Of a DNA stretch of 45,701 nt, positions 34,727 to 39,078 are shown piece by piece; positions within the stretch are counted from its first letter, which is position 1, and each line of letters opens with the position of its first letter. The notes below the pieces were generated by a model that saw only the letters and a program-made list of their open reading frames with translations, had not been told where the DNA came from and did no database searches. The translations under genes were made by a program, and so were the position numbers. The stretch is taken from positions 1 through 45,701 of the forward strand of contig JAJEAH010000060.1 in NCBI GenBank assembly GCA_022824225.1. Reading direction: 5' to 3'. Origin of the DNA: Chloroflexota bacterium. Its GTDB lineage: Bacteria; Chloroflexota; UBA11872; VXOZ01.

Positions 34727-34735
34727 TGCTACAAT
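34727..34735 (+). promoter_or_regulatory. Extended -10 promoter of leuS
   Basis: TGCTACAAT, a TGn-extended -10, lies 65 bp before the leuS start codon. No T-box antiterminator sequence (AGGGTGGNACCGCG) was seen in the short leader. Confidence 0.5.
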
Positions 34736-34799
34736 GTGCGTATTAAGCAGCCACGAACAGACGTTTTGGCATATTTCGCGTGCGGAGGCGTGGGAAAAC

Positions 34800-37433
34800 A
34801 TGAGCCAGACGGAGGAGCAAACGCCGCAGAGCGCCGTAGACGCCCCTGCGGAAGCGTCACCGGAGGCGGAACAGGCAGACGCCGCGCCGGCGGCGGAAGC
34901 GCCGGAAGAAACCGGCCAGGAGGCAGCGGCGGCAGCCGACGCGCCGGTGGCCGACGCGCCGGTGGCGACGAAAGTAGTGTCGGCAGATTACCAACCGCAG
35001 GAATTTGAGCAAGACTGGCAGGCGCGCTGGCGCGAAACGAAGCTATACAAGACCGTGGAGGAAGAGAGCAACCGCAAGACCTTCTACTGTCTTGACTTCT
35101 TCCCCTACCCATCCGGCGACGGGCTCTCCGTCGGTCATTGCCATAACTATATTCCCACCGATGTCATATCGCGCCAGATGCGCATGCGCGGCTATAACGT
35201 GCTGCATCCCATGGGCTGGGACGCGTTTGGCTTGCCCGCCGAGAACCGCGCCCGCGATACGGGCATCTCGCCCCGGCTGACCGTGGACCAAAACACCGAC
35301 AATTACAGACGCCAACTCGACCTGATCGGCTGCTCGTTCGACTGGGACCGCGAGATCGATTCCAGTTCGCCGGAATACTACAAGTTCACGCAGTGGCTCT
35401 TCCTGCTCATCCACCGCCGCGGCTTGGCGTATAAGTCCAAGGGCCAACAGTGGTGGTGCCCTTCCTGCGAGACGATCTTGGCCAACGAGCAAGTGCATGA
35501 CGGCCGCTGCTGGCGCTGTGAATCCCTGGTGGAGAAGAAGAGCCTGGAGCAGTGGTACTTCAAGATTACGGACTACGCGGACCGCTTGCTCGATGACTTG
35601 GAGAAGATCGACTGGCCGGAATCCACTAAAGAGATGCAGCGCAATTGGATTGGCCGCAGCGAGGGCACGGAGGCGGTCTTTCTGACGGAAGCCGGCGACG
35701 AACTGCGGGTCTTCACCACGCGGGCGGATACGCTGTTCGGCGCTACCTTCATGGTGCTGGCGCCGGAGCACGAACTGGTGGACAAGCTGACCAAGCCGGA
35801 GCAGAAAGAGGCTGTGGACCGCTACGTGGCCGCCGCGGCGCGCACGGATGATACCGAACGTCAATCCGCCGAGCGCGAAAAGACCGGGGTCTTTACCGGG
35901 TCGTATGCCGTCAATCCGGTGAACGACGAGCACATTCCCATCTGGATCGCCGACTACGTGCTGGCGACCTACGGGACCGGCGCGATCATGGCCGTGCCCG
36001 CCCACGACCAGCGCGACTTCGAGTTCGCCCAGAAGTTCGGTCTGGACGTGCGCGTGGTGGTACAGCCCCCCGACGACGTGGACTGGGCCGTTGCCGACGC
36101 CTACGAGGGCGAGGGGACATTGGTCAACTCCGGTGATTTCGACGGGGAGACATCCACGATAGGTGGAGAGAAAATTACGGAATGGCTGGAGGAACGCGAG
36201 TTGGGCGGCGCCAAGGTGCAGTACCGCATGCGCGATTGGCTGATCTCGCGCCAGCGCTACTGGGGCGCGCCCATCCCCATGGTGAAGTGCCCCAAGTGCG
36301 GCTGGGTGGAGATGCCCACGCCCCAGTTGCCGGTGCTCTTGCCGGAAGTGGACGACTTTCAACCCACCGGCGACGGGCGCTCGCCGCTGGCCAAGGTGGG
36401 CTCGTTCATGGCGACCACGTGCCCCACGTGCAAAGGCCCCGCGGAGCGCGAGACCGATACCATGGACACCTTCGCGTGCTCGTCGTGGTACTTCCTGCGC
36501 TTTGCGGACCCGCACAACGACGGCTTGCCCTTCGACCTGGGCAAGGCGCGCTACTGGCTGCCGGTGGACCTCTACGTCGGCGGTTCGGAGCACGCCACGA
36601 TGCACCTGATCTACGCGCGCTTCTGGACCAAGGTGATCAAGGATGCGATGCTCATCGACTTCAATGAGCCGTTCACGATGCTGCGGCATCAAGGCATGGT
36701 CTTGGCTCCGGACGGGAGCAGGATGTCCAAGAGTCGCGGCAACGTCATCACGCCGGATGAGATGGTAGAAAAGTTCGGCGTGGACGCGCTGCGCGTGTAC
36801 GAGCTCTTCATGGGCCCGTTCGACCAGGACATTAGCTGGAACACGGAGGGCATTCCCGGCGCGCGCCGGTGGTTGGTGCGCGTCTGGAATCTGCTGCTGG
36901 ACCGCGTGGAGCAGGGCAGCGAACCGCTCCCGGTTGCGCAAGCCGAGCCGGAACTGACCCGCTGGATCAACCGCGTGGTCAAACGCGCCGGCGAGGATAT
37001 CGACGCGCTCAAGTTCAACACCATGATCGCGTACTTCATGGAGTTCACCAACTGGCTCTACAAGGTCTACTCGCCGGAACTGGCGGCCACGGAGACGTGG
37101 CAGAAAGCGCGGGAGCAGTTCCTGTTGGTGCTGGCCCCGGTTGCGCCGCACCTGGCGGAAGAAATCTGGGAGCGCTGGGGCCGGGAGTACTCCGTCCACC
37201 AGCAGGAGTGGCCGGAATTCGACGAATCGCTCATCCATGAGGAGACGTTTACGCTGGTCGTGCAGGTGAATGGCCGGGTGCGGGATACCATCGAGGCCAG
37301 CGTGGCTCTGGATGAAGACGGCGCCCGGGAACTGGCGCTGGCGAGCGACCGTGTGCAGCAGTTCCTGGACGGCCGGGACGTGAAGCTGGTGAAGTACGTG
37401 CCCGGCCGCTTGATCAACGTGGTGGTGGGCTGA
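34800..37433 (+). CDS. leuS: Leucyl-tRNA synthetase
   Basis: A class I aminoacyl-tRNA synthetase of 877 residues that charges tRNA-Leu. The HIGH motif is SVGH (110-113, after PYPSGDGL), KMSKS is RMSKS (641-645), and zinc-finger-like CPSC..CWRC and CPKC..CPTC pairs are visible. The CP1 editing domain is present (TRADTLFGATFMVLAPEHEL). The family normally begins at YQPQEFEQDWQARW; here about 63 Ala/Glu/Pro-rich residues precede it. The ATG at 34800 has GGAGG 11 nt upstream. It is a single-gene unit. Confidence 0.96.
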   Translation: MSQTEEQTPQSAVDAPAEASPEAEQADAAPAAEAPEETGQEAAAAADAPVADAPVATKVVSADYQPQEFEQDWQARWRETKLYKTVEEESNRKTFYCLDFFPYPSGDGLSVGHCHNYIPTDVISRQMRMRGYNVLHPMGWDAFGLPAENRARDTGISPRLTVDQNTDNYRRQLDLIGCSFDWDREIDSSSPEYYKFTQWLFLLIHRRGLAYKSKGQQWWCPSCETILANEQVHDGRCWRCESLVEKKSLEQWYFKITDYADRLLDDLEKIDWPESTKEMQRNWIGRSEGTEAVFLTEAGDELRVFTTRADTLFGATFMVLAPEHELVDKLTKPEQKEAVDRYVAAAARTDDTERQSAEREKTGVFTGSYAVNPVNDEHIPIWIADYVLATYGTGAIMAVPAHDQRDFEFAQKFGLDVRVVVQPPDDVDWAVADAYEGEGTLVNSGDFDGETSTIGGEKITEWLEERELGGAKVQYRMRDWLISRQRYWGAPIPMVKCPKCGWVEMPTPQLPVLLPEVDDFQPTGDGRSPLAKVGSFMATTCPTCKGPAERETDTMDTFACSSWYFLRFADPHNDGLPFDLGKARYWLPVDLYVGGSEHATMHLIYARFWTKVIKDAMLIDFNEPFTMLRHQGMVLAPDGSRMSKSRGNVITPDEMVEKFGVDALRVYELFMGPFDQDISWNTEGIPGARRWLVRVWNLLLDRVEQGSEPLPVAQAEPELTRWINRVVKRAGEDIDALKFNTMIAYFMEFTNWLYKVYSPELAATETWQKAREQFLLVLAPVAPHLAEEIWERWGREYSVHQQEWPEFDESLIHEETFTLVVQVNGRVRDTIEASVALDEDGARELALASDRVQQFLDGRDVKLVKYVPGRLINVVVG

Positions 37434-37450
37434 GCCTGCGCGTTGAACGT

Positions 37451-37629
37451 TGTGGGCCCCGCGCGGGGCGCTGTGTTGTTCATGCTTCGACTAAGCTCAG
37501 CACGAACGGCTGCGGGCCCCGCGCGCGGGGCTGTGTTGTTCGTGCTTCGACTATGCTCAGCACGAACGGCTGCGGGTCTGCGCGCTGCGCTGCGTCGTTC
37601 ATGCTTCGACTGTGCTCAGCACGAACGGC
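37451..37629. repeat. Three 60-bp tandem units with the GCTCAGCACGAACGG core
   Basis: Units of 59-60 bp start TGYGGGYCYCGCGCGSGG and end GCTCAGCACGAACGGC. They are longer than the 35-37 bp units elsewhere because each includes a GGGCCCCGCGCGGGG hairpin-prone half. Located 18 bp after leuS. The rest of the gap to 37915 shows no gene. Confidence 0.85.
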
Positions 37630-37915
37630 TGCGGGTCTACGGTGGACGTTTGGGTCGATGTGTCGCGGCGCGAACAGTTCGCTGGCCGTTGGCCTATGTA
37701 TGCTGGAGCTATGACGTCCGGCGAACGCCCCGGCCCGCAGACTGTCCCAGCGCTTGCGGTTGGCGGGGAGCCGCCGCAAGCGGCAGACCGGGTAAGGGCC
37801 CCGGGACTCTGCCGGAAACGCGCCCATGCCGGACGTGCCTGTGGTGAAGGGGCGCTGGCGGCGGAGCGGCCTGGACGTTGAACGGACCCAATTGGCGGGC
37901 GCCAGAAGGAGCGCG

Positions 37916-38482
37916 ATGATGCAGAGACGACGTTTGCTGTACGGATTGGCTGGCGGCGCGGCGGCGGTTGGGCTTAGCGCGTGCGGGCAGTCCATCATGG
38001 GGAGGCAGAGCGGCGCCGCGACCGTGAGCGAGTTGCCGGTGCTCGGCAAGGCGCCGGAGTTCGAGTCACCGACGTGGATAAACTCCGAACCGATTACGCT
38101 GGCAAGCTTGCAGGGCCGATCGGCGGTCGGCCTCGCCTTCTGGACCTACGGCTGAATTAACTGCCGCAACGATATCCCCGGTCTGGTGGATATTCATGAG
38201 ACCTACGCGGACGACCGATTCACGCTGCTCAGCATCCATACGCCGGAGTTCAGCCACGAAAAAGTGGTGGATAACGTGCGCGCCGCCGTGGAGCGGCTGG
38301 GCGTGCCGTATCCCGTCGCCATCGACAACGATTTCAAAATCTGGCGGGCGTTCGGCAACCGCGCCTGGCCGACCCTCTATCTGATCGACCGCCAGGGAGA
38401 CGTGCGTCTGGCCAAGGTGGGCGAGGGCCGCTTCGACATGGTGCGCGGCGCGATCGAGTACTTGAGGGAAAACGAGGTCTAG
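37916..38482 (+). CDS. Candidate selenoprotein: DipZ/TlpA-like thioredoxin-fold Tat lipoprotein with UxxC
   Basis: A 188-codon frame read through TGA at 38153-38155 (codon 80). The start is a Tat-type lipoprotein signal (QRRRLL, lipobox LSAC). The redox site is FWTYG-TGA-INC-RNDIP: DipZ/TlpA-like and NHLRC2-like thioredoxins have FWTYxCINC, so the TGA sits exactly at the first active-site Cys, with Cys 83 kept. The sequence after it remains fully conserved (SIHTPEFSHEKVVDNV, YPVAIDND, AWPTLYLIDRQG, GEG), so the frame is intact. A hairpin with a GGUCU loop follows (see 38171-38194). Reading TGA as selenocysteine is inference; a nonsense mutation of TGC/TGT is the alternative. AAGGAG precedes ATGs at 37916 and 37919. 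It would be a membrane-tethered thiol/selenol reductant outside the cytoplasm. Confidence 0.8.
38171..38194 (+). promoter_or_regulatory. Putative bacterial SECIS hairpin
   Basis: GATATCC pairs with GGATATT (six Watson-Crick pairs plus one G-U), then CC pairs with GG across a bulged U, leaving the apical loop GGUCU at 38180-38184. The loop is 25 nt after the TGA, within the usual SECIS distance. E. coli fdhF SECIS also has a GGUCU loop and a bulged U, although the bulge there is on the other arm. Confidence 0.65.
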
Positions 38483-39078
38483 GACTCTCTACAAGGGATC
38501 TCATCTCGGACTCACAATGGGGCAAGTCGAGCCCATCTGTCATTCCGAGTGGAGCGAGGAATCTAGTGCCACGTTCTACGCGGCTCGAATTCCCGGCACG
38601 CCAGTTTCCTCGCCGCGCGCAGGGCGCGGAAACCAAGGCGCTGAGCCAATTGCGCCGGTTGGGGTACTGACCCTAGATTCCTCAGTCGCTACGCTTCGTT
38701 CGGAATGACAAATCTCTTTGGCCATACCGGGCAGAAGCCCATGTCGTTCCGAGCATTGCCCACTGTCATTCCGAGTGGAGCGAGGAATCTAGCGCCACGT
38801 TCTACGCGGCCCGTAGTCCCGGCACGCCAGTTTCCTCGCCGCGCGCAGGGCGCGGAAACCAAGGCGTTGAGCCAATCGCGCCGGTTGGGGTACTGACCCT
38901 AGATTCCGCGAACCTTGTTCGACAGTCGCTACGCTTCGTTCGGAATGACATATAGTCGCGGCGAGCCAGGCCGAATTCTCTTGATTCGGCTCCCCCCGGG
39001 TCTGTTTATGCATCAGTCAACGTTCGTAGGCCTTACGCAGAACTACCCCAGACTACCTTGACCGATTGCAACGCCCGC
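38483..39078. other. Intergenic region with two long palindromic repeats
   Basis: Two related elements, 38538-38710 (173 bp) and 38764-38950 (187 bp). Each begins TGTCATTCCGAGTGGAGCGAGGAATCTA and ends CTACGCTTCGTTCGGAATGACA (the quoted ends are only the arm tips). They share an inner stretch with TTTCCTCGCCGCGCGCAGGG. No gene is present. Confidence 0.75.

Follow-up and report, generated by a model that had tools for sequence, protein, structure and literature searches.

A gene predicted to encode a selenocysteine-containing DipZ-like thioredoxin lipoprotein in a Chloroflexota bacterium, with probable selenoprotein relatives of the NHLRC2/SOQ1 type

We analyzed a stretch of 45,701 nucleotides of DNA from a Chloroflexota bacterium (hereafter, the window) and found in it a gene whose product, judging from the sequence, is almost certainly a DipZ-type redox protein of the cell surface that contains selenium. 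The reading frame of this gene has a single interruption, a TGA, and when the TGA is read through, the product is a protein of 188 amino acids. By computation, it is near certain that this UGA is decoded as selenocysteine (Sec). The computation gives good support for the recoding signal, the decoding machinery and a conserved frame, as well as for the fold and family of the protein, and we infer the export and lipid anchoring of the protein, the attack by Sec80 with resolution by Cys83, and the re-reduction through CcdA from the fold, the motif and the neighborhood of paralogous genes. The most likely role of the protein is that of an extracytoplasmic selenol-thiol reductase re-reduced through CcdA. 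Taken as a whole, we consider it highly probable that the gene encodes a genuine selenoprotein, that is, an exported lipoprotein acting as a UxxC reductase that receives its electrons through CcdA.

The features of the gene are listed in Table 1. The start codon may be the second ATG (37919) rather than the first one (37916), and this choice agrees with the orthologs. The gene stands after leuS throughout the genus, and its other neighbors vary between species. Short repeats of the types GTGCTCAGCACGAACGGCTGCGGG and CATTCCGAGTGGAGCGAGGAATCTAG, some of them inverted in order, flank the gene at 37443-37700 and 38520-38800 of the window; they resemble dispersed intergenic repeats.

Table 1. Positions in the window of the predicted selenoprotein gene, its parts and its upstream neighbor
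Feature	Position	Strand	Remarks
Predicted gene for a Sec-containing DipZ-like thioredoxin lipoprotein	37916..38482	+	stop codon TAG, 38480-38482
Shine-Dalgarno-like AGAAGGAG	37904..37911	+	4 nt before ATG 37916, 7 nt before ATG 37919
Predicted signal peptide, RRR-LL (twin-arginine-like) and lipobox LSAC, putative lipid anchor Cys23	37919..37984	+	from sequence
Thioredoxin-like domain (AhpC-TSA / DipZ-like), residues 45-186	38048..38473	+	PF00578, E 2.3e-14; match to 2hyx; predicted fold
TGA as predicted Sec, residue 80, first position of UxxC	38153..38155	+	aligned homologs, hairpin contrast
Putative resolving Cys83 of UINC	38162..38164	+	invariant in 37 relatives
SECIS-like hairpin	38171..38194	+	9-bp stem, 5' arm 38171-38179, loop GGUCU 38180-38184, bulged U 38187
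leuS, upstream neighbor	34734..37433	+	kept there across the genus; ends in TGA

The genus was sampled with six genomes, five of them complete, and these six also represent the whole order as sampled. The TGA is found at the same codon in 6/6 of these genomes, and the proteins are 81-85% identical. Over the six species, the part of the gene after the TGA has a mean dN/dS of 0.073, and the part before it one of 0.10. The alignment of the six orthologs and the downstream value thus bear out the original prediction of a frame that remains conserved before and after a single TGA. Among 80 relatives from named genomes, the four congeneric ones have TGA, and the other 76 have Cys exactly at the position of the TGA. 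That is, the TGA replaces the first Cys of FWTYxCINC while the second Cys is kept, as had been proposed. With Sec at residue 80, the motif reads FWTYGUINC, and the CxxC position lies at the start of helix 1.

It could be supposed that the gene is a pseudogene or that the assembly is in error, with TGA in place of a former Cys codon (TGC or TGT) and a product of only 79 residues; a standard annotation would indeed end the gene at 38155. However, the TGA occurs in ten paralog copies as well as in the six genomes, which were assembled separately, the frame downstream of it evolves with a dN/dS of 0.07, the TGA always falls on the catalytic Cys, and the hairpin described below is confined to TGA loci. 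Since six independently assembled genomes have the TGA at the same codon, sequencing error is ruled out. We therefore rejected the supposition of a pseudogene or sequencing error, on the conservation of both the TGA and the frame downstream, and regard it as very improbable.

A hairpin with a GGUCU loop and a bulged U had also been predicted, at the spacing of a bacterial SECIS element (bSECIS). This hairpin is present, with its arm 15 nt and its loop 24 nt from the TGA. Published bSECIS criteria are a loop of 3-9 nt with G at loop position 1 or 2, a distance of 16-37 nt from the UGA, an upper stem of 4-16 bp and a minimum free energy (MFE) of -7.5 or lower (PMC13188914). In the window hairpin, the loop is GGUCU, the distance 24 nt, the stem 9 bp and the energy of the forced structure -8.6 kcal/mol, all within these limits. 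In most orthologs, the minimal element is weaker than -7.5. In the window, nothing about the energy of the 25-nt element by itself stands out (z -1.4), and folding longer stretches of the window gives other structures. An energy-only bSECIS scan of the short family at -7.5 kcal/mol or lower gave a hit in 13/20 Sec and 25/59 Cys members, that is, no separation of Sec from Cys, and for this reason we used a test of fixed geometry. Among 144 relatives, the hairpin of fixed geometry was found in 44 of the 45 TGA loci and in none of the 99 Cys loci; the p-value of 2e-36 overstates the contrast, since the geometry was chosen post hoc from the TGA loci and these relatives are not independent of one another. 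The contrast itself is plain. The weight of the hairpin thus comes from its conservation, its fixed position and its presence only in TGA loci, and not from its energy. The comparison of homologs agrees with this: congeners keep both the TGA and the hairpin, whereas more distant homologs have Cys and lack such a hairpin.

Eighteen nucleotides, ATCCCCGGTCTGGTGGAT, are identical in the six orthologs, synonymous positions included; this is the longest synonymously frozen run, with the hairpin within. Taken by itself, the frozen run has a P of about 0.09 in the family of the window gene, 0.012 in paralog A and 0.67 in paralog B. The stem recurs in two paralog groups that are only 45-49% identical, with the loops AGUUU and AGUUG. 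Covariation of the stem was weak against a shuffle control, with one compensatory pair (A-U to G-C). A search of 37900-38500 against Rfam gave no SECIS match and a single chance match, and was uninformative.

The host genome (3.37 Mb, 95% complete) belongs to Chloroflexota. Such an origin had been suspected, and those relatives that have names in public collections are MAGs of Chloroflexi/Chloroflexota (SB0662_bin_44, RHO3_bin_22, Plut_88905 and CATQHC01). Their isolate names point to marine sponges, and the host is apparently sponge-associated. The original prediction, which found no sel genes in the window, left them to be sought in the rest of the genome, and tRNA-Sec, selA, selB and selD are all found there. 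The tRNA-Sec scored 67 bits (Rfam cut-off 47), has the anticodon TCA (UCA) according to ARAGORN, and possesses an 8-bp acceptor stem, a 6-bp D stem and a long variable arm. The scores were 460 bits for selA, 375 bits for selB, which is full length, and 365 bits for selD, which has its own in-frame TGA in CAGUAGKL; at this selD locus (L056, G000:C86) the Sec codon is accompanied by a GCGCAGGUCCUGCGC hairpin. In the class, selB is present in 36/41 genomes. The same genus also has selenoproteins of the WASWUGC/WASWURC type (L035, L038, L026) that resemble NF041054; in one of them, URC takes the place of UGC. In the proposed mechanism, UGA codon 80 would be read as Sec by SelB and tRNA-Sec at the SECIS hairpin 24 nt downstream.

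A genome-wide reassignment of TGA to Trp or another amino acid has nothing in its favor except the in-frame TGA itself. TGA still acts as a stop codon here, since leuS in the window terminates with it at the homologous end. Furthermore, the tRNA(UCA) of the genome is tRNA-Sec, and each of the in-frame TGAs that we inspected (the Trx family, WAxxUGC and selD) falls on a position known for Sec or for a catalytic Cys. We rejected reassignment on these three grounds and give it practically no chance.

By sequence search, the closest solved structure was the C-terminal domain of DipZ (2hyx, E 5.5e-33), and SOQ1 and NHLRC2 came next. The predicted model, whose pLDDT exceeds 90 for almost the whole Trx domain, matches DipZ, SOQ1, NHLRC2, ResA and Etrx2 at Z 19-23 (22.8 over 151 residues for 2hyx, 19.2 for Etrx2). 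DipZ of Mycobacterium tuberculosis (2hyx, 5cyy) resembles the window protein in the Trx-like domain and FWxYxCINC. However, DipZ carries Cys and, besides the Trx-like domain, a fused CcdA membrane domain and another domain at the C-terminus. The window protein, whose Trx domain extends to residue 186 of 188, has neither of these two additional domains and is predicted to be a stand-alone Sec lipoprotein. NHLRC2 and SOQ1 (6gc1, 7djj) likewise share the Trx-like domain with (C)xINC, but the human NHLRC2 and the plant SOQ1 have Cys, whereas the window protein has a predicted Sec and no NHL propeller. The ResA-like WAxxUGC selenoprotein (NF041054) is also Trx-like, and its WASWUGC form exists in the host genome; against this model the window protein scored 26.3 bits (cut-off 300), and the motif and the architecture differ.

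As for the location of the protein, the product would be exported and lipid-anchored at the outer face of the membrane. The residues R4 and R5 and the residues L20, S21, A22 and C23 of the signal peptide are invariant in the alignment of the six orthologs. RRRLL and LSAC were read by eye, and the Tat signal model TIGR01409 gave 11.8 bits, below its cut-off of 16.7. The claim of Tat-anchored export is thus less secure than it had been made: the RRR-LL and LSAC kept in the six orthologs speak for it, and the score of the model against it. The term selenol reductase, which had been proposed for the predicted activity, is also less secure.

The genus has further TGA lipoproteins, with the motif FWTYTUPVC. 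Two of them, forming a divergent pair, are encoded in each of the five complete genomes, in every case directly beside a CcdA-type gene (PF02683, E 8e-19). One such pair (L167, 10128-11335 and 11735-12487, G000:C30) is separated from selB by about 8 kb. Beside the window gene there is no CcdA gene; CcdA adjoins the paralogs only. In DipZ, a CcdA and a Trx-like domain of this kind are joined in one protein, and the CcdA-Etrx systems pass electrons likewise. The paralog pair together with CcdA is, by its predicted products, the DipZ arrangement in a split form, and for this reason we propose CcdA as the electron donor. In the UxxC pair, Sec80 would attack and Cys83 would resolve, so that disulfides or other oxidized thiols are reduced, and the resulting oxidized selenenyl-sulfide would be re-reduced by electrons crossing the membrane through a CcdA protein.

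The pneumococcal Etrx1 and Etrx2, which work with CcdA and MsrAB2 (PMC3914529), are lipid-anchored extracytoplasmic thioredoxins, as is predicted for the window protein, and in pneumococcus they are fed by CcdA. They use Cys and the partner MsrAB2, whereas the window protein has a predicted Sec and its host genome has no match to MsrB (PF01641) at 95% completeness. MsrB, the substrate suggested by the pneumococcal model, was therefore rejected.

Two other roles were weighed against that of a general disulfide reductase. In the first, Sec is inserted but serves mainly to reduce peroxides or organic hydroperoxides, in the manner of a peroxiredoxin (Prx). The position of UxxC at the N-terminus of helix 1 is the layout of DipZ/TlpA and differs from the PxxxTxxU that Prx have. 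Moreover, DipZ, SOQ1 and NHLRC2 are the nearest relatives, and CcdA adjoins the paralogs. Although the match to AhpC-TSA (PF00578) and the similarity to AhpE of M. tuberculosis (Z 17) agree with a peroxidase, and Sec raises peroxidase rates, we regard this role as unlikely. In the second, the protein serves as the reductase of one particular maturation pathway, such as that of cytochrome c, copper centers or another selenoprotein. The structural neighbors do include ResA, StoA and CcmG, and the genome also has the ResA-like WAxxU selenoproteins; however, the adjoining genes are leuS and species-variable genes, with no cytochrome maturation gene among them, so that this role is possible but rather doubtful.

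The window protein has candidate relatives beyond the genus. Short TGA lipoproteins of its type, with MWTFGUINC or FWTFGUINC, and with the hairpin ATTCCYTCGKTGARGGAAT, were found in two other Chloroflexota families (L178-L182). One of these two families, f10, also contains Cys members (L177, L198, L199 and L200), in which the G of the loop or the stem is gone and selB is still present. These Cys siblings apparently carry a fossil SECIS left by a reversion from Sec to Cys. Loss of selB as the cause of this reversion was rejected, since selB is present in all of them.

A second branch consists of long proteins, full-length NHLRC2/SOQ1 orthologs, mostly with FWTFCUINC and with hairpins of the CTTCCGCAGTTGCGGAAG type (25 loci read). 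In the loci L158-L165, L173-L175 and L183-L197, the TGA is at the second Cys of CCINC, the hairpin is about 25 nt downstream, and the loci are spread over many Chloroflexota families. For example, L161 (1728-3203) matched SOQ1 at 4e-105 and NHLRC2 at 1e-101, and has NHL repeats and a Trx domain. A tree was built from the Trx domains of 89 sequences. It groups the long Sec members in a single clade with a support of 91 and requires at least four Sec/Cys changes overall, but it is based on few columns and its deep forks are weak. Full-length NHLRC2/SOQ1-like TGA proteins probably constitute an unreported selenoprotein family.

A DipZ-like or NHLRC2-like selenoprotein family is absent from the 2026 catalogue of 119 prokaryotic families (PMC13188914). 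The UxxC families in this catalogue (PF00578 Prx-like, cd02966 thiol-disulfide isomerase-like and Redoxin) resemble the window protein in having UxxC in a Trx fold and belong to the same broad superfamilies, but there is no DipZ-like, NHLRC2-like, FWTYxUINC or CcdA-linked lipoprotein entry. For the proteins compared with NCBIfam, which included part of the short Sec lipoproteins, all models scored below their cut-offs, and a literature search on selenoprotein and NHLRC2 found no relevant paper. The short branch may overlap with the 'thiol-disulfide isomerase-like' family of the Sargasso Sea (PMC1088965). We think it likely that the window gene is a branch of unrecognized DipZ/NHLRC2-type thioredoxin selenoenzymes across Chloroflexota, including full-length Sec orthologs of NHLRC2/SOQ1.

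NHLRC2 is an essential human protein whose mutation has been associated with FINCA disease, which is fatal, and the Trx domain of this protein did not reduce insulin (PMC6107167). The predicted natural occurrence of Sec at exactly this site, reported as inactive in NHLRC2, argues for redox catalysis there. If our reading is true, the CCINC of NHLRC2 would be a true redox center with the second Cys attacking, and the bacterial NHLRC2/SOQ1 orthologs would be a place to seek its substrate. The finding would also add a kind of selenoprotein whose genes a standard annotation would truncate at the UGA. Moreover, it suggests that uncultured bacteria of sponge-type samples carry out selenium chemistry outside the membrane, probably fed by CcdA.
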